Positions 42,353 through 49,440 of a stretch of 64,000 nt of DNA are shown here, in pieces. Source of the stretch: Paenibacillus graminis (GTDB lineage: Bacteria > Bacillota > Bacilli > Paenibacillales > Paenibacillaceae). The DNA lies in NCBI RefSeq assembly GCF_000758705.1, contig NZ_CP009287.1, positions 4,960,001 to 5,024,000 on the forward strand, written 5' to 3'. A program made the position numbers and the translations under genes. The notes below the pieces were generated by a model. It was not told the origin of the DNA, ran no database searches, and saw only the letters and a program-made list of their open reading frames with translations. Positions within the stretch are counted from its first letter, which is position 1, and each line of letters starts with the position of its first letter.

Positions 42353-42430
42353 TAGCATCTGCGAAGAAACCGGTTTGTAATTGTTAGTTGGAATTAGGAT
42401 ATTTAGATCGATTCTCCCTCAGAACTCGGC

Positions 42431-42722
42431 CTTCGCCGCTCCAACAACGGTATTTCTGCCGTTGTTTCCGGGCAATCTGGCCTTCGCTACTCCAACAACG
42501 GCATTTCTGCCGTTGTTTCCGGGCAAGCTGGCCTTCGCTACTCCAACAACGGCATTTCTGCCGTTGTTTCCGGGCAAACTGGCCTTCGTCGCTCCAACAA
42601 CGGTATTTCTGCCGTTGTTTCCGGGCAAGCTGGCCTTCGCTACTCTAACAACGGCATTTCTGCCGTTGTTTCCGGGCAAGCTGGCCTTCGCCGCTCCAAC
42701 AACGGTATTTCTGCCGTTGCTC
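42431..42722. repeat. 51-bp tandem repeat array with an internal hairpin, six copies
   Basis: Copies begin at 42446, 42497, 42548, 42599, 42650 and 42701. The core AACAACGG(C/T)ATTTCTGCCG plus TTGTTTCCGGGC is the same as in the array at 16567-17022. The spacer part (AAGCTGGCCTTCGCTACTCC) is entirely different. The period is again exactly 51 bp. Confidence 0.95.
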
Positions 42723-42906: not shown

Positions 42907-44337
42907 CTACATGCCTACTGCTGAGGAGATTGCAGCAAAAATCGCCGCCACCAACCAGAGAATCGGAAACAGCTTGAGGATCACCTTCAGCCATTGTCCA
43001 AAATTGATCCGGCCGATAGCCAGACCTGCCAGCAGCACCCCGCCTGTCGGAGAGATCAGATTCGTTAATCCATTACCGAATTGGTATGCGGTTACTACCG
43101 CTTCGCGGTTAACACCTACCAGATCGCCTAAAGGTGCAAGCACGGGCATCGTTAAGGCCGCTTCCCCGGATGAAGAAGGGACCAGGAACGTTATAATATT
43201 GTGAACGATTAGCATGATGGTGGTGAACAAGTAATTCGGCAAGCCTTGCAGCATGGTTGCCAGCCCGTTAAGAATGGTATCGATAATCATCCCGTTCTCG
43301 GCAACAACGAGAATTCCCCGGGCCAAGCCGATGATCACCGCAGCATAGATAAATTCTCCGCAGCCTTTGACAAAATTCTCGGCGATTTCCTTCTGGCTCA
43401 TCCGGGTAACAATGCCCGAAAAAATACCAAGTACAAAGAAAAGCGCTCCAATCTCGGTCATATACCAGCCTTTGCTCAATATCCCCCAGACAATAAGCCC
43501 CAAGGTAACGATAAATCCGCCAATAATCAATTTATCCCGGTTCGAGAATTTTACTTCTATCCCGTCCGTCTCCTTGATGAAGTGCTGACGGTTGATAATA
43601 TCGTTCTGGAAAACTGCCGATTTCTCCGGGTTCTTCTTCACCCGGTGTGCATACCACATCGTAAAGCCAACGGATATCCCAGTAAAAACAATCCATTCAA
43701 TAAATCTCAGCCATAACTGCGGATTTCCCTGCACCCCCGCTACGCCTTGGGCGATCAATACAGAGAACGGATTGACGGTTGATCCGACATAACCGATCTG
43801 TGTTCCGAGGAAAAGGATGAGAATTGCCGTCATGGAGTCAAAACCTAAGGCAAACATCAACGGGATAAAAATAGCATACAATGGTATGATTTCTTCACTC
43901 ATCCCAAAGGTGGAACCCCCAAGGCTGAAAATAACCATGGCAATCGGGATTAGCAATATTCCTTTTGTTTTGAGCCTGCCGGCTAAAGCCATCAATGCCC
44001 GGTCGATCGCTCCGGTCTGCAAAATGATTCCAAAAGCTCCCCCTACAACCAGAACGAAGGCCACAACATCGGCAGCATTGATAATGCCCTCCATCGGCGC
44101 ACTGGCAATTTGGGCAAAACCCTGTCTCAAGTCCCCTTGTTCACTGGTTTTGGGTACGGTGTGGTAGGTTCCCGGGATAATGGCTGTCCGGGAAGAACCA
44201 TCCACCACAACCTCCTGGCGGTCAAATTGCCCGCTGGGGACAATCCAGGTCAGACCGGCAATAGCGACAATAATCAGGAAAATCAATGTATAGCTATGAG
44301 GAAGGGACCATTTCCATTTGCGTTTAACCGTTTCCAT
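42907..44337 (-). CDS. YfcC/DcuC-superfamily transporter
   Basis: A 476-residue integral membrane protein with about 12 helices. Typical YfcC features are L-T-W-I-V-P-S-G-Q-F near residue 30, G-G-A-F-G-I-I-L-Q-T-G, G-M-S-E-E-I-I-P-L-Y, F-L-V-P-S-S-S-G-E-A-A and LTNLISPTGGVLLAGLAIGR. The family takes up amino acids, peptides or dicarboxylate-like substrates. It starts 2 bp after the amidohydrolase stop, so the two are co-translated. In this cluster it is the only importer and probably brings in the glycated amino acid that the kinase and deglycase at 46824-48620 process. Substrate assignment is inference. Confidence 0.88.
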   Translation of the reverse strand: METVKRKWKWSLPHSYTLIFLIIVAIAGLTWIVPSGQFDRQEVVVDGSSRTAIIPGTYHTVPKTSEQGDLRQGFAQIASAPMEGIINAADVVAFVLVVGGAFGIILQTGAIDRALMALAGRLKTKGILLIPIAMVIFSLGGSTFGMSEEIIPLYAIFIPLMFALGFDSMTAILILFLGTQIGYVGSTVNPFSVLIAQGVAGVQGNPQLWLRFIEWIVFTGISVGFTMWYAHRVKKNPEKSAVFQNDIINRQHFIKETDGIEVKFSNRDKLIIGGFIVTLGLIVWGILSKGWYMTEIGALFFVLGIFSGIVTRMSQKEIAENFVKGCGEFIYAAVIIGLARGILVVAENGMIIDTILNGLATMLQGLPNYLFTTIMLIVHNIITFLVPSSSGEAALTMPVLAPLGDLVGVNREAVVTAYQFGNGLTNLISPTGGVLLAGLAIGRINFGQWLKVILKLFPILWLVAAIFAAISSAVGM

Positions 44338-44339
44338 TT

Positions 44340-45923
44340 CTACCCCTCGTTCCTGGCAGCATCATAGGTGATTTGACCGGCGGTAATCGTCAAGATCACA
44401 TGTGCGTCTCTAATCTCGGTTGCTGTTGTATCTAAAAGATTACGGTCAAATACGGCAATATCAGCAGCTTTTCCAGCTTCCAAAGTTCCTGTACGTTCTT
44501 CCATACCGCAATGTCTGGCACCGTTGATGGTCCAAGCCTTTAAGACTTCTGCAGCAGGCATCCCCTGCTCCAAATGCCATCCTCCTGAAGGCGATCCGTC
44601 AGGAAACAACCGGAAAGAAGCCGCATACAGCGAATCAGGAACACTGGTTAGGAAAAGCGGCAAATCCGTACCAATCGTAACCGGAACATTGGCTTCCAGC
44701 ATGGACTTGTAATTATAAAAGCGGCTTTCATTTTCTTTTCCGGCCACCGCCGCCATGTAAGCCTCCTCATAGGAAGGATTCAAGAGCAGGATCTGAGCAT
44801 ATATCTCGGCAAATATCCCATTATCGCCCATCCTCCGGATATCATCGGGATGAGGATATTCCAGATCACTGATCGAATGCCTGATCCGCTGATCTCCCCG
44901 GCTGCGGTTGCAGCCTTCGATCATATCCACAGCCTTGCGGATCGCCGCATCCCCTTCAGCCGTAAGACAGCATTTGATCCCATGGCTGTCCGCTGCCTGC
45001 ACGGCCCTTTCAATCGCTTCGTAATCAACAGGCCGCAGGGTGGTAACGCCGGGCATATCCGCGTAAGGCTCCAGCATATCTCCCGTATGATCAGCTACTA
45101 CACCGTCCATCATCAGCTTATAGCCCTGAAAACGGAGAAACTCTCCTTGATAACGCTCTTTATACTGCAGTCCTGCGGGAATATCCAGCGGCTGCAATAC
45201 AGGTTCAAGTGCGAAATGAACCCGCAGCGGCAGCTCTCCTGCAGCTTCCAGCTCTTCAAGGACCGGAAGCAGGCCGCTGTGGCGGTCAAAGCCGATATCT
45301 TTTATAGAAGTAACGCCCCGTTTGGCAAGCATCCGGGCGAAGTCCAGAAACTCCTGTCTGACTAATTCCCGGTCCTGCATCATGTCCATCAGCAGACGGG
45401 CACGTGATTCCGCACTGCATTGGTCAGGGGCAAACTGATACTTATCCTGGGCGAATTGGTTCATCCAACAATAGCTTTTGGTCCGGTTAATGGCGATTAC
45501 AGGCCTTCCGGGAAAAACTTCGTCTAATAAGCTTTGCCCCGGAAGCTGTCCCCAATCCTCTTCGCTCCAGCCGTAAGCGTATACATTTTGCTCTGAGGGA
45601 CTTTTTGCAGCTTCTTGCCTAAGCAGCTGCAGAGCCTCGTCAATTGTAGCCGCATTTGTCAGATCCACACCACGGTGCATAGACATGTACCCGGTAAAAA
45701 AGACATGGTTATCATGCACACCGGGCATAATGAACGCATCCTTCAGATGATGAACAACTGTTGCCGGTCCAATCCAGTCTTCGGCTTCTGCCGGGCTGCC
45801 GACCGCGACGATGTGCTCACCTTGCAGGGCAACAAATGCTGATGATACGCTATCCTCTATTCCTGTAAATACTGCATTAGACAACAGTACTCTGTCTGCA
45901 AAACCATGTGCTGCTGCTTCCAT
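44340..45923 (-). CDS. amidohydrolase of the YtcJ/Amidohydro_3 type
   Basis: A 527-residue cytoplasmic protein. Beta-sandwich segments flank a TIM barrel: the N-terminal strand region (VALQGEHIVAVGS) and the C-terminal L-E-A-G-K-A-A-D-I-A-V-F-D. Other family positions are K-L-M-M-D-G-V-V-A-D-H-T-G and R-H-S-I-S-D-L-E. The usual D-x-H-x-H metal motif after the first strand reads G-V-H-D-N-H-V-F-F here. The second histidine is therefore Phe, although an extra His stands three residues before the first. A TATAACGTTATA operator lies 37 bp upstream of its start. It probably hydrolyses an amide or blocked form of the glycated substrate, or of the released amino compound; which one cannot be read. 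Confidence 0.82.
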   Translation of the reverse strand: MEAAAHGFADRVLLSNAVFTGIEDSVSSAFVALQGEHIVAVGSPAEAEDWIGPATVVHHLKDAFIMPGVHDNHVFFTGYMSMHRGVDLTNAATIDEALQLLRQEAAKSPSEQNVYAYGWSEEDWGQLPGQSLLDEVFPGRPVIAINRTKSYCWMNQFAQDKYQFAPDQCSAESRARLLMDMMQDRELVRQEFLDFARMLAKRGVTSIKDIGFDRHSGLLPVLEELEAAGELPLRVHFALEPVLQPLDIPAGLQYKERYQGEFLRFQGYKLMMDGVVADHTGDMLEPYADMPGVTTLRPVDYEAIERAVQAADSHGIKCCLTAEGDAAIRKAVDMIEGCNRSRGDQRIRHSISDLEYPHPDDIRRMGDNGIFAEIYAQILLLNPSYEEAYMAAVAGKENESRFYNYKSMLEANVPVTIGTDLPLFLTSVPDSLYAASFRLFPDGSPSGGWHLEQGMPAAEVLKAWTINGARHCGMEERTGTLEAGKAADIAVFDRNLLDTTATEIRDAHVILTITAGQITYDAARNEG

Positions 45924-45958
45924 GATTTCAACGCCTTTCTGCCGAATGTCAATACGAC

Positions 45959-45972
45959 TTATAACGTTATAT
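45959..45972. promoter_or_regulatory. GntR operator upstream of amidohydrolase-YfcC
   Basis: TTATAACGTTATAT has a perfect 12-bp palindromic core, TATAACGTTATA. It is one of three copies in this cluster. Confidence 0.85.
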
Positions 45973-46013
45973 CAAAACTTCTGCTTCCTGCTTACCGCAA
46001 GAAGCAGAATGAA

Positions 46014-46730
46014 TTACAAAGTAAATTGATAACGGTCACCGATAATGTACTGCTTGCCCACATGAACAGGCTGACTATGCTGGTCATAAATAATTGTATT
46101 CATATAGAACAATGGCTGGCCAATCGGAATTTCCAGTAATTTCGCCTGCTGCTCATCAGCCAGGGTAATTTGCAATACCGTCTCTCCCGGCTGGTTGGGA
46201 TCAATCTGATAACGGTCCCGCAGCAGCTCATACACCGAGCCTTCCAGACTTTCCTCCATTAGAAAGGAGAATCGCTCAAACGGATAATAGTTATTTTCCA
46301 GCATGAGCGGTCTTTCACCGGCATATCTTTTACGCTGAATATAGAGCACCGGCTCACCCTGCTGTATTTGCAGCCGCTCTGCGGTTTCCTGGTCGGCCTT
46401 AATCTTCTTCCTCTCGGTTATGGCGCTGTGCGAAGACAATCCATTGGCTCTGCAGGCAGCCGTAAAACTGATGATATGCTCAATCTTGCGTCCGATCTTA
46501 TGCGCATTAACAAAGGTGCCCTTGCCCTGGCGTTTTGTCAGATAGCCTTCACTCACCAATTCCTCGATAGCTTTCCTTACCGTAATCCGGCTGACATTGT
46601 AGTTCGCGCTTAGCTCAATTTCAGTAGGGATTTTATCTCCGGGATTAAAGGTTCCATTCGCAATGGCGGATTGGACTGCCTTTTTCAATTGGATATATAG
46701 AGGCTCAGCCTGTTCTGAATTTAACATCAT
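46014..46730 (-). CDS. GntR-family (HutC/UTRA) regulator of the Amadori cluster (FrlR-like)
   Basis: A 238-residue protein. The N-terminal winged helix (residues 10-75) has F-N-P-G-D-K-I-P-T-E-I-E-L, SRITVRKAIEELVSEGYLTK and Q-G-K-G-T-F-V. The C-terminal UTRA effector domain (about 95-235) ends in V-G-K-Q-Y-I-I-G-D-R-Y-Q-F. FrlR and FraR, regulators of fructosyl-amino-acid operons, have this architecture. Three TATAACGTTATA sites, in front of this gene, the amidohydrolase and frlB, are its probable targets. It lies between the two transcription units it would control. Confidence 0.9.
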   Translation of the reverse strand: MMLNSEQAEPLYIQLKKAVQSAIANGTFNPGDKIPTEIELSANYNVSRITVRKAIEELVSEGYLTKRQGKGTFVNAHKIGRKIEHIISFTAACRANGLSSHSAITERKKIKADQETAERLQIQQGEPVLYIQRKRYAGERPLMLENNYYPFERFSFLMEESLEGSVYELLRDRYQIDPNQPGETVLQITLADEQQAKLLEIPIGQPLFYMNTIIYDQHSQPVHVGKQYIIGDRYQFTL

Positions 46731-46745
46731 TTACCCTCACTTGTG

Positions 46746-46759
46746 ATATAACGTTATAT
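46746..46759. promoter_or_regulatory. GntR operator upstream of its own gene
   Basis: ATATAACGTTATAT is a perfect 14-bp palindrome 16 bp upstream of the GntR start. Its 12-bp core, TATAACGTTATA, is identical to that upstream of the amidohydrolase. Confidence 0.88.
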
Positions 46760-46823
46760 TACTCTATGGTTAGAGTAACAAACGATTCTCTTTTTCACAA
46801 GCAAAGATAGAACGTTGCCGTTA

Positions 46824-47636
46824 TCAGTAACGGGCGCCGAATCCAAAGGAACCTTCTACCCTACAGCTCTTGGCTGCTAATCTGGAGCCTTCCTGCATAG
46901 CCGCTTGAATATTCCCGTCCTTAATCATACTCATTAAAAAGGCTGTAATGTAGGAATCGCCTGCCCCCATCGTATCCACGGCCTCAATAAGTTCCGGAGT
47001 CTGGTAATAAAAGGCTGTTCCATCATAGGCAATGGATCTGTCGCCGCCGCGGGTTGCAACCAATATCTGTCCGTCTCTTCTGCGTTTGGCCTTAATATAG
47101 TTCCGCGTCTCTTCGTCGGTCATATGGCTACAGGAAAAGAAAGCAAAATCCGCATTCCCGATATACCGTTCTACTTGCTCATCCTCAAAGTCATCCGAGA
47201 AATCAAAGGAGAGGGGAATCCCCAGTTCATTCAGCTCTCCAAGCAGATGTCCAGTGTGGCTATAAAGCCCCGTATGAATAATGTCAAAGCCCCGGATATA
47301 TTCTCTGTCGGCTTCGCTCAGCATAATCGGATTCAGCCTGGTGACTCCGCCTTCGTTGCTGCCCAGAAATATCCGTTCCCCGTTCTCCAGGGTAACACGT
47401 GCACATCCGTTCTCGCCGCTGTGATGTCTGCAGTGTGAGATATCAATCTCTAGCTGCTGCAGCGTATTTTCCACAAGCCGTGCTTCGTCATCATCGCCGA
47501 ACACACCGAGAAACGCCGCGTCCGCACCTTCTCCTTTGGCGAAAACACTGAAGTTAAGCGCATTGCCGCCGGGATACATCGTACGCTGATGAACATACTT
47601 GTCGACCACATTATCGCCAATCCCTAAGACTTTCAT
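46824..47636 (-). CDS. frlD: PfkB-family kinase, fructoselysine/fructosyl-amino-acid 6-kinase-like
   Basis: A 270-residue ribokinase-fold protein with GGGAGGAA before ATG 47636. Early residues G-I-G-D-N-V-V-D-K-Y and P-G-G-N-A-L-N-F-S-V (PfkB signature 1) are present. So are S-F-D-F-S-D-D-F, the anion hole and catalytic Asp in D-T-M-G-A-G-D-S-Y (signature 2), and a short C-terminus. This agrees with E. coli FrlD (G-D-N-C-V-D-Y, A-F-D-F-S-D, D-T-M-G-A-G-D-S-F). The reaction would be ATP-dependent 6-phosphorylation of a fructosyl-amine. It starts 15 bp after the deglycase gene. The exact amine partner is unknown, so the symbol marks the family, not proven specificity. Confidence 0.82.
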   Translation of the reverse strand: MKVLGIGDNVVDKYVHQRTMYPGGNALNFSVFAKGEGADAAFLGVFGDDDEARLVENTLQQLEIDISHCRHHSGENGCARVTLENGERIFLGSNEGGVTRLNPIMLSEADREYIRGFDIIHTGLYSHTGHLLGELNELGIPLSFDFSDDFEDEQVERYIGNADFAFFSCSHMTDEETRNYIKAKRRRDGQILVATRGGDRSIAYDGTAFYYQTPELIEAVDTMGAGDSYITAFLMSMIKDGNIQAAMQEGSRLAAKSCRVEGSFGFGARY

Positions 47637-47651
47637 GGTTGTTCCTCCCGA

Positions 47652-48620
47652 TTAGTAGGCTACTTTCCCCATGTAACGGCGGGTTTCCAGCGGATGATTT
47701 CTTACTTCGGCAAGCGCCTCGCGATAGACACAAATGATGCTGTAGAATAGTACCGGATTGAAGAATTCCACAACCTCGTCGGCAATCGTACCAATTCCAA
47801 GCTCCTTGGCATCAATCACTTCGACTTTCTCCGCATACTGATTCAGGAAGGTCCGGGCACGTTCATCCAGCTCACGGGTACGGCCTTCATTCATCATCAG
47901 AATGAACGGTGTTTCTTTATCCGTCACTTCAAATGGACCATGGAAGTACTCACCGGAGTGAATAGCCGCAGCATGCAGCCATTGCATTTCCATCAGCGAG
48001 CAGATCGCAAAGCCGTAAGCATGTCCGTAGGATGCTCCACTCGTCAAGATATAGTAAAGCTCCTCATTGCGGTACTTGTCGGCAAAAACACGGGCACGCG
48101 GAGCGACCTGCTTTTTACCCTGGTTAATAATGCCGTTGATGGTTTCTAAGCCTTTTTGAAAAGCTTCAGCATGCGCATACCCTTCAACCACATGCAGCAA
48201 TTGAGCAGCGAGATCCAGAATGATAGCCATCGGATTGTTTTTGACATTGCTGTCATCTCCCCATTCATACAGGAAGGAATAATCGGAGTAATTCAGTAAT
48301 GCGGCTTCCTTGTTGTGGGTTAGGCCAATGGTATGGGCTCCATGCTCTTTGGCTGCTTGCGCCGCAGCTACCGATTCCGGCGTATTTCCGCCATGGGAAC
48401 AAACGATGACTACCGATTGCGCACCCAGACGTTTAGGCAATGCATGAACGAATTCATTCGCTGTATAAAGTCCTGCTACCAGCTTCTTCGCTTCACTATC
48501 AAGAAAATACTTGGAAGGATACATATCGACCAGTGAACCCCCGCAAGCTACAAAATATACCTCAGAAATTCCTTCAGCCACTTTTTCACGGATACTCTGG
48601 ACAACCTGATTTACATTCAT
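47652..48620 (-). CDS. frlB: SIS-domain deglycase, fructosamine-6-phosphate (FrlB-like)
   Basis: A 322-residue protein with two SIS sugar-phosphate isomerase domains. FrlB-type motifs are V-Y-F-V-A-C-G-G-S (phosphate loop), C-S-H-G-G-N-T-P-E-S, A-I-H-S-G-E-Y-F-H-G-P-F-E (matching the catalytic S-G-E-F-R-H-G-P-L-E of E. coli FrlB) and the ending E-T-R-R-Y-M-G-K-V-A-Y. It is shorter than E. coli FrlB (about 340). The enzyme family splits fructosyl-amine 6-phosphate into glucose 6-phosphate and the free amine. It is first in the frlB-frlD unit behind the strong promoter at 48671-48699. Confidence 0.85.
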   Translation of the reverse strand: MNVNQVVQSIREKVAEGISEVYFVACGGSLVDMYPSKYFLDSEAKKLVAGLYTANEFVHALPKRLGAQSVVIVCSHGGNTPESVAAAQAAKEHGAHTIGLTHNKEAALLNYSDYSFLYEWGDDSNVKNNPMAIILDLAAQLLHVVEGYAHAEAFQKGLETINGIINQGKKQVAPRARVFADKYRNEELYYILTSGASYGHAYGFAICSLMEMQWLHAAAIHSGEYFHGPFEVTDKETPFILMMNEGRTRELDERARTFLNQYAEKVEVIDAKELGIGTIADEVVEFFNPVLFYSIICVYREALAEVRNHPLETRRYMGKVAY

Positions 48621-48638: not shown

Positions 48639-48699
48639 ATAACGTTATATAACGTATTGTTTACGAGATAAATATAACCGCTTTCAAAAAAACTGTCAA
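48639..48699 (-). promoter_or_regulatory. frlB promoter with cre-like site and double GntR operator
   Basis: On the minus strand, TTGACA (48694-48699), a 17-nt spacer and TATATT (48671-48676) form a strong promoter. The cre-like TTGAAAGCGGTTATA (48673-48687) spans the spacer and -10. Just downstream, two overlapping operators of the TATAACGTTATA type lie at 48639-48657. The layout indicates both glucose repression and specific repression. Confidence 0.8.
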
Positions 48700-49072: not shown

Positions 49073-49208
49073 TTGGATCAGACGGCCAGGGCATTTGCTG
49101 GTTCAGCCAGCCCACCCCTTGCTTGGATCAGACGGCCAGGGCATTATCTGGTTCAGCCAGCCCACCCCTTGCTTGGATCAGACGCCAGGGCATTTGCTGG
49201 TTCAGCCG
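49073..49208. repeat. 50-bp tandem repeat, about 2.7 copies
   Basis: The unit GGATCAGACGGCCAGGGCAT, then TTGCTGGTTCAGCC and AGCCCACCCCTTGCTT, repeats with a 50-bp period (GACG at 49081, 49131 and 49181). It directly abuts the dispersed element at 49213. Confidence 0.9.
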
Positions 49209-49212
49209 CCGA

Positions 49213-49440
49213 CCCCAAGTGGAAAAATGGAGCTTAAATTCTCCCCCTTGCATGATCCGCAGGTGTTAGGTGGAAAAAGGATAACTAATCTGACCGATTC
49301 GCACACTTACAGGCGATTCCGGCTATATTAAGTTTCCTTTTTCCCACTATTTCCTTTTAAGTAAGGTTTTCCGTCATTTTAAGTGTACTAATTCCACTTC
49401 ACTGTGCCGCTAAGCTTCGGGCAGACGCTCCATAACAGGC
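49213..49440. repeat. dispersed intergenic element, copy 4 of 5
   Basis: Opens with CCAAGTGGAAAAATGGAGCT, then GGTGGAAAAAGGATAACTAA, TCTGACCGATTCGCAC and ACTTACAGGCGATT. The inverted arm is TTAAGTTTCCTTTTTCCCAC, then AAGTGTACTAATTCCACTT and CTCCATAACAG. Very close to copies 1 and 2. Confidence 0.8.

Follow-up and report, generated by a model that had tools for sequence, protein, structure and literature searches.

Amadori compounds, sugar-linked amines found in browned food and decaying matter, commonly serve as a glycated-amine nutrient in gut and soil. In the literature consulted, the bacterial routes described for their use consist of import, phosphorylation by a kinase (or by a phosphotransferase system, PTS) and cleavage by a deglycase, with an epimerase or an asparaginase in some. 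Here we describe five genes from a 64,000-nucleotide stretch of the Paenibacillus graminis genome (contig NZ_CP009287.1, positions 4,960,001 to 5,024,000), which we refer to as the window. They encode a predicted deglycase, a kinase, a regulator, a YfcC-family transporter and a protein of the amidohydrolase superfamily that we call AMH. With the frl genes of Escherichia coli K-12 (frlABCD-frlR) the window cluster shares an FrlB-type SIS deglycase, an FrlD-type kinase and a GntR/UTRA regulator; the FrlA and FrlC of that system are not among the five genes, and unlike frl the window cluster has YfcC, AMH and a palindromic operator of its own.

The Salmonella fra genes (fraR, fraBDAE), as given in PMC4072780, resemble the cluster in their deglycase, kinase, GntR regulator and Dcu-type transporter. 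They also include the asparaginase FraE, whereas no asparaginase family is represented among the five window proteins, which have AMH instead. An earlier note on this DNA had counted the transporter as a further difference from fra, a view that a comparison at the level of families does not bear out, since FraA is described as Dcu-family (PMC4072780) and YfcC is DcuC-family. Bacillus subtilis frlBONMD-frlP/frlR likewise has a deglycase, a kinase and a repressor, but relies on an ATP-binding cassette (ABC) importer where the window set has a single DcuC/YfcC transporter together with AMH (PMC12632257). The Salmonella gfr and Faecalibacterium fructoselysine PTS operon is akin to the cluster in the deglycase-based use of fructosamines by gut bacteria, and differs in that a mannose-family PTS carries out uptake and phosphorylation; the main text of that source makes no use of the word 'amidohydrolase' (PMC12136445).

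We read the five genes as an Amadori-compound utilisation cluster in which AMH would prepare the sugar-amine without the metal centre usual in its family, and from comparison of sequences we put the probability of this reading at roughly 0.6. We consider the arrangement a real variant of Amadori catabolism. The core of the pathway is known; in the open-licence literature searched we found no paper that links an amidohydrolase with a cluster of deglycase genes, and a near-obligatory AMH partner with a rebuilt active site, a shared operator and a two-operon regulon were not found described there. The five genes are as follows.

42907-44337, minus strand: YfcC/DcuC-family secondary transporter, likely importer (Pfam DcuC 387 bits; NCBIfam YfcC 390 bits)
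44340-45923, minus strand: AMH, an Amidohydro_3 (YtcJ-like) protein with a rebuilt active site (HxF not HxH, Asp353 not His, Tyr375, Gln377)
46014-46730, minus strand: GntR/UTRA regulator, likely repressor of the regulon (Pfam GntR and UTRA)
46824-47636, minus strand: FrlD-like PfkB sugar kinase, predicted fructosamine 6-kinase (Pfam PfkB)
47652-48620, minus strand: FrlB-like SIS-domain deglycase, predicted fructosamine-6-phosphate deglycase (Pfam SIS)

Deglycase, kinase and regulator

The earlier note had named these five genes, placed them on one strand under a common operator and assigned them to Amadori catabolism. We confirmed all five open reading frames (ORFs) on the minus strand at the positions listed above, with family assignments that agree between Pfam and NCBIfam, and homology bears out the assignment. 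In a search of the PDB, the SIS protein of the window scored 330 bits against 9otj and close variants (named only SIS domain protein), 300 bits against 3fkj, and 287 bits against 3eua, which is named a putative fructose-aminoacid-6-phosphate deglycase and which we take to be the B. subtilis enzyme. GlmS reached about 40 bits in the same search, ruling out a GlmS-like identity. The best NCBIfam model for the kinase was fructoselysine 6-kinase at 211 bits, with the next family 140 bits lower at 69, and a fructokinase identity was ruled out on this ground. A grouping of the SIS and PfkB proteins with GlmS-like or fructokinase families, which the earlier note had named as fatal to its assignment, is not what we see, and in the deglycase tree described below the SIS protein falls among deglycases. 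These results support, by homology, a core that would belong to the Amadori (frl/fra) pathway.

Identity to the E. coli K-12 proteins is 24% for the deglycase (FrlB), 33% for the kinase (FrlD) and 34% for the regulator (FrlR). Residues Glu211 and His227 were invariant in 105 of 105 aligned deglycases, E. coli K-12 FrlB included; the acid/base pair of FraB is reportedly Glu214 and His230. The motif GAGD, a hallmark of PfkB proteins, is carried by the window kinase and by 81 of the 98 kinase frames found in the related loci described below. The kinases that correspond to it on plasmids of Enterococcus faecium and Citrobacter are annotated as fructoselysine 6-kinase. A general acid/base pair of deglycases is given, without residue numbers, in PMC9609667.

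AMH accompanies the deglycase across genomes

AMH loci were collected by scanning named genomes with an alignment of the AMH family, keeping the best 80 of 99 confirmed, which gave 79 loci; their gene content was called by six-frame profiles at 60 bits or above. A deglycase gene was present in 77 of the 79, at most 3.6 kb from AMH and on the same strand in 74 of the 77. The two loci without one are a 4.4-kb contig (L034) and a stretch that ends 1.7 kb past AMH (L064). Deglycase and FrlD-like kinase occurred together in 75 loci, GntR in 69 and YfcC in 61, and all five families, whose co-occurrence the earlier note had proposed to check, were found in 59. FrlC was present in 35 loci, Amidohydro_2 in 22 and YjbQ in 21; the NCBIfam model for fructoselysine 3-epimerase scored 134 bits on the FrlC of one locus (cut-off 305). 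A gene for a FrlA-like transporter is located close to deglycase and AMH in L037, L051 and L060, the FrlA model reaching 576 bits on that of L060 (cut-off 800). That the arrangement recurs in other genomes places it far beyond chance, and since gene order varies between groups the linkage of AMH has been maintained through rearrangement.

The loci come from Bacillota (Paenibacillus, Fontibacillus, Neobacillus, many Clostridia, Enterococcus), Actinomycetota (Bifidobacterium, Collinsella, Olsenella, Geodermatophilus) and Enterobacteriaceae (Klebsiella, Phytobacter, Kosakonia, Superficieibacter). Because the same set is found in these four enterobacterial genera, and also in Bifidobacterium and Collinsella, the label 'Gram-positive variant' given by the earlier note is not supported. 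Fructoselysine use by Collinsella intestinalis has reportedly been studied.

Amidohydro_3 proteins from outside the AMH clade served as controls. No deglycase was found near any of 21 such loci, with about 7 kb read to each side, and this rules out that AMH is an ordinary YtcJ hydrolase present by accident. Among 20 of these controls, L150-L153 are Pfam members unrecognised by the clade profile, L157 and L159 have no HxH motif printed and are placed outside the clade only by their scores, and a single weak PfkB match (71 bits) was seen in L149. We also approached the linkage from the other side, through two deglycase searches of genome samples not selected by AMH. Deglycases of the window type (at least 443 bits; the next scored 321) had AMH about 1.6-1.9 kb away in six of six cases, of which the window itself, L189 and L234 were read and three were placed by coordinates. 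By profile, no Amidohydro_3 of any kind was found at the 18 other deglycase places read, of 44 listed (two ended at contig ends), nor near the deglycases of E. coli K-12 and of L105, a second locus of the window's own genome. At nine of the 18 AMH-less places kinase and deglycase stand 3.0-3.8 kb apart, leaving room for further genes.

In a tree of deglycases, most of the AMH-linked ones formed one group, and the rest (L037/L051/L060, L038/L053/L068, L077 and L024/L087) fell in the part to which E. coli FrlB and L105, a locus without AMH, also belong. The tree has a midpoint root and no support values, and two well separated AMH-linked parts, but no more, can be relied on. As its AMH-linked members were chosen by AMH, it gives no frequency of AMH for the FrlB part. 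The occurrence of AMH beside deglycases of two separate parts is what would be expected if the chemistry of AMH belongs to the pathway and not to one enzyme.

Two proteins, P0067 and P0070, known as database entries only, join an AMH part to a kinase domain that follows it; with the fructoselysine 6-kinase model their kinase halves reach 347 and 303 bits, both over the cut-off of 247. A further protein, P0119, which combines a C-terminal piece of AMH with a DcuC/YfcC piece, is a possible assembly chimera and was not used.

Some further observations concern the spread of these genes. The five-gene set is carried by a conjugative Enterococcus faecium plasmid and a Citrobacter freundii plasmid (L114, L115), in both near insertion sequence (IS) elements, and a plasmid collection held 18 records, one of them of chromosome size, with an AMH relative at E <= 1e-60. 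A megablast search with the Klebsiella AMH gave no match in E. coli complete genomes, and one database protein (P0049) is labelled E. coli. By profile, the genome of the window (G000) has two further deglycase loci: L105, at 7.05 Mb, with the order FrlC-FrlA-SIS-FrlD-GntR, and L106, at 1.469 Mb, with a PfkB/GntR/SIS set.

The rebuilt active site of AMH

The window AMH matches Pfam PF07969 (Amidohydro_3) at 195 bits, and its closest relatives are those of Paenibacillus riograndensis (93% identity) and P. jilunlii (95%). A profile of the AMH clade scored 103 bits against PDB 3icj and 100 bits against 3igh, both YtcJ-type, with homology over the whole length. We compared the active sites of 77 clade database proteins with those of 13 outgroup YtcJ proteins and of 3icj and 3igh. 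The HxH motif, a Lys on strand 4, a His on each of strands 5 and 6 and the last Asp are taken here to be the metal-ligand positions, as in the superfamily at large. We found that HxH had become HxF in 77 of 77 clade proteins and in none of the 13 outgroup proteins. At the strand-6 position (353) His was found in none of the 77, being replaced by Asp (74), Asn (2) or Glu (1). The strand-5 His (position 321) was kept in eight and replaced by Thr in 53, Asn in 14 and Cys in two, and the strand-4 Lys (Lys269) was kept in 69, with Asn in seven and Ile in one. The outgroup keeps HxH and both the strand-5 and strand-6 His in 13 of 13.

Not every position has changed. His73 and Asp420, the first His and last Asp of the barrel, were invariant in 77 of 77, and Glu355, Tyr375 and Gln377 were present in all 77 as well, whereas the outgroup never has Tyr at 375 or Gln at 377. 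The window AMH itself reads HxF, Thr321 and Asp353. AMH differs from the YtcJ-type metallohydrolases 3icj and 3igh in its HxF, its strand-6 Asp, the change at Lys269 or on strand 5, Tyr375 and Gln377. These counts must rest on the 77-protein database sample, because the scan that gave the 79 loci used two patterns and the FF of the signature is part of one of them.

A tree of 81 clade sequences (78 loci, the two fusions and the window) placed them in one group with a support of 0.99, and HxF was present in all 80 that were readable there. The 81 show two forms of the pocket, one with Lys269 and Thr, Asn or Ser at 321 (29 sequences) and one with Asn269 and His321 (50); Lys269 together with His321 was found only in L024 and L087, and one or other of the two positions is changed in 79 of the 81. 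Another deviation is seen in L077, whose AMH has Asp323 and Ser355. With two metal positions changed in every readable clade sequence and a third in 79 of 81, the proposal of the earlier note that an amidohydrolase replaces the asparaginase step could not be upheld. Judged by its residues, AMH is no ordinary metallo-amidohydrolase.

Loss of metal ligands would also be expected if AMH were a pseudo-enzyme without catalytic activity, binding the Amadori compound or the phosphate of it and acting as a scaffold or sensor for kinase and deglycase, a role that the fusions to FrlD-type kinases and the closeness of AMH to the kinase and deglycase genes would suit. We think this improbable, since Tyr375, Gln377 and Glu355 are invariant in the 77 database proteins (the Ser355 of L077 notwithstanding) and since residues 269 and 321 vary in paired forms, which suggests an active pocket and not decay.

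A shared operator and a second operon

The regulatory features of the cluster are listed here.

45961-45970: operator ATAACGTTAT upstream of AMH-YfcC
45979-46009, minus strand: terminator-like hairpin, 13 pairs, separating the regulator gene from AMH (consensus match)
46748-46757: operator ATAACGTTAT upstream of the regulator gene
48639-48654: operator ATAACGTTATATAACG ahead of the deglycase gene; the genome has just one other copy
48671-48699, minus strand: sigma-70-like promoter TTGACA-17-TATATT ahead of the deglycase gene (consensus match, 11/12), with the operator directly downstream

The palindrome ATAACGTTAT occurs at 45961, 46748 and 48639, that is, upstream of the AMH, regulator and deglycase genes. 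These three sites compare with 0.02 expected in 64 kb, and none of 100 shuffles reached three. In the 79 AMH loci ATAACGTTAT was found 75 times, in 41 loci, and 73 of the 75 copies lie within zones upstream of cluster genes, which make up 12% of the bases; 13 comparison palindromes of similar make-up occurred 0-12 times each. The longer 16-mer ATAACGTTATATAACG was found at no more than two places in the 7.17-Mb genome when up to one mismatch was allowed, and both sites are exact. One is at the deglycase promoter and the other about 35 bp upstream of the kinase gene of an unlinked operon, FrlD-Amidohydro_2-YjbQ, whose kinase scores 284 bits on fructoselysine 6-kinase, above the cut-off of 247, and is followed by Amidohydro_2 and UPF0047/YjbQ genes. 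Chance as the sole source of the operator is ruled out by the shuffles, the locus counts and the genome scan.

A second Paenibacillus genome (G015) also has two exact ATAACGTTATATAACG sites. One stands at its own FrlD-Amidohydro_2-YjbQ operon and the other, placed by coordinates, 1.9 kb beyond a GntR gene whose product is 96% identical to that of the window, as in the window. Four FrlD-Amidohydro_2-YjbQ operons that have a GntR of their own (L101-L104) lack the operator site at that promoter; in L101 a single 10-mer operator lies upstream of the GntR gene, at a distance of about 0.8 kb. The FrlD-Amidohydro_2-YjbQ trio adjoins AMH and deglycase in Clostridia, which provides independent support for the regulon. 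Together, the operator and this operon render the regulon directly testable. Within the cluster, the hairpin between the regulator gene and AMH, along with the operator that AMH-YfcC has to itself, suggests that AMH-YfcC may form a second operator-controlled unit. Promoter-like sites and terminator-like hairpins were counted in the window as consensus matches only, with 11 of the former against a shuffle mean of 8.4 and seven of the latter against 5.6.

The trio of FrlD-type kinase, Amidohydro_2 (PF04909) and UPF0047/YjbQ recurs at L009:5611-7765 (G000, 1.35 Mb) and at L100-L104, sometimes accompanied by FrlC and a GntR of its own. At L010:7285 (G000, 6.30 Mb) one ATAACGTTAT lies about 80 bp upstream of the first gene of an operon that encodes an amidohydrolase, a SelA-like pyridoxal phosphate (PLP) protein and a KDGP aldolase (Pfam matches to KDGP aldolase and SelA). 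This operon is a candidate third member of the regulon, or the site is there by chance; the set carries a weak GntR match of its own (130 bits), and the genome also contains the reversed control pattern, 3+2 times.

Proposed pathway and alternatives

Homology to frl and fra is the basis for expecting import, 6-phosphorylation and deglycation in this cluster, and the reactions, the direction of transport, the effector of the repressor and the AMH step are all ones that we infer. YfcC would bring a sugar-linked amine into the cell, where the FrlD-like kinase would add a phosphate (6-phosphorylation) and the FrlB-like deglycase would split the phosphorylated compound into glucose 6-phosphate and a free amine. 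The GntR/UTRA protein would keep the genes repressed as long as the phosphorylated compound is absent; for E. coli FrlR, the effector proposed is fructoselysine 6-phosphate (PMC12632257). AMH would prepare the sugar-amine inside the cell, making it acceptable to the kinase and the deglycase. As AMH occurs together with different deglycases and transporters, and as two proteins fuse it to a kinase, it likely acts on the sugar-amine itself. The changed metal positions make ordinary amide hydrolysis doubtful. Without the residues thought to hold metal in its relatives, AMH would have to use different chemistry, which we predict to be of the acid/base kind, in a non-hydrolytic or at least non-canonical conversion: an isomerisation or epimerisation, or the opening of a cyclised form. 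The tracking of the deglycase by AMH across three phyla, the kinase fusion, the carriage on plasmids and the lost metal residues would point to a substrate class or a step that has gone unrecognised, and automatic names such as 'amidohydrolase family protein' conceal AMH.

Several findings weigh against this reading. The window deglycase scores 98 bits on the E. coli FrlB model (cut-off 430), the 211 bits of the kinase fall short of the fructoselysine 6-kinase equivalog cut-off of 247, and the 390 bits of YfcC fall short of an NCBIfam cut-off of 500. YfcC was not found in 18 of the 79 AMH loci, contig ends cutting some, and exact ATAACGTTAT was absent from 38 of the 79, all five Enterobacteriaceae loci among them. 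The 77-protein database sample was itself gathered from the window protein. The strand-5 His is kept in 52 of the 81 tree sequences, which argues against a metal-free site for that form of the pocket; His73, His321 and Asp420 could hold one metal in the His321 form, and Glu323, Asp353 and Glu355 could make another metal site in both forms. Lastly, FrlC was present in 35 of the 48 loci of the Asn269/His321 form and in none of the 30 of the Lys269 forms, so AMH is no simple replacement for FrlC in the former. AMH as a general replacement for FrlC is unsupported, given the co-occurrence of the two in 35 loci. The pattern of FrlC and pocket form largely follows the deepest split of the AMH tree, is confounded with ancestry and does not count as independent evidence.

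The equivalog cut-offs missed for the kinase, the transporter and E. coli FrlB, and the versatility of the SIS and PfkB folds, would also suit a cluster that serves another phosphosugar-amine (e.g. an amino-sugar derivative), with the SIS and PfkB proteins recruited as an isomerase/kinase pair. We regard this as very improbable, since a chain named deglycase is among the closest solved relatives of the SIS protein, the kinase fits fructoselysine 6-kinase 140 bits better than the next model, related clusters contain FrlA- and FrlC-type genes (both below cut-offs), and the same operator marks a kinase above the fructoselysine 6-kinase cut-off.

The amidohydrolase superfamily is mostly hydrolytic, and AMH may, along the lines of the earlier note, be a true hydrolase that removes a side group (a side-chain amide, an N-acyl or a formyl group) from a modified glycated amine, in the place of FraE. 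Its membership of Amidohydro_3 with the first His and last Asp of the barrel invariant would fit such a role, as would a strand-5 His that is kept in the majority of tree sequences and permits a one-metal site, and acidic residues at 323, 353 and 355 that could rebuild a metal site. We nevertheless consider a hydrolase unlikely: all 77 clade proteins have Phe in place of the second His of HxH, none has His at the strand-6 position, and the window AMH and its nearest relatives are also without the strand-5 His. Moreover, FraE is reported to be periplasmic (PMC4072780), whereas the N-terminus of AMH has, by eye, no visible signal peptide.

Returning to AMH as a protein that prepares the sugar-amine without the usual metal centre, a bolder form of this reading would make it the founder of a branch of the amidohydrolase superfamily in which sugar-amines are converted without metal. 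AMH, with its two alternative catalytic pockets, would then carry out a near-obligatory new step in a second type of Amadori catabolism that spans phyla. The pocket with Lys269 and Thr or Asn at 321 is never found with FrlC (0 of 30 loci), and this form may perhaps do the epimerisation itself. We put this forward tentatively, with the odds against it.

Repeats flanking the cluster

Two tandem repeats lie on either side of the cluster. One, of 51 bp in 5.7 copies, is at window positions 42428-42719, downstream of the YfcC gene, and the other, of 50 bp in 2.9 copies, is at 49073-49216, about 0.4 kb upstream of the deglycase promoter.

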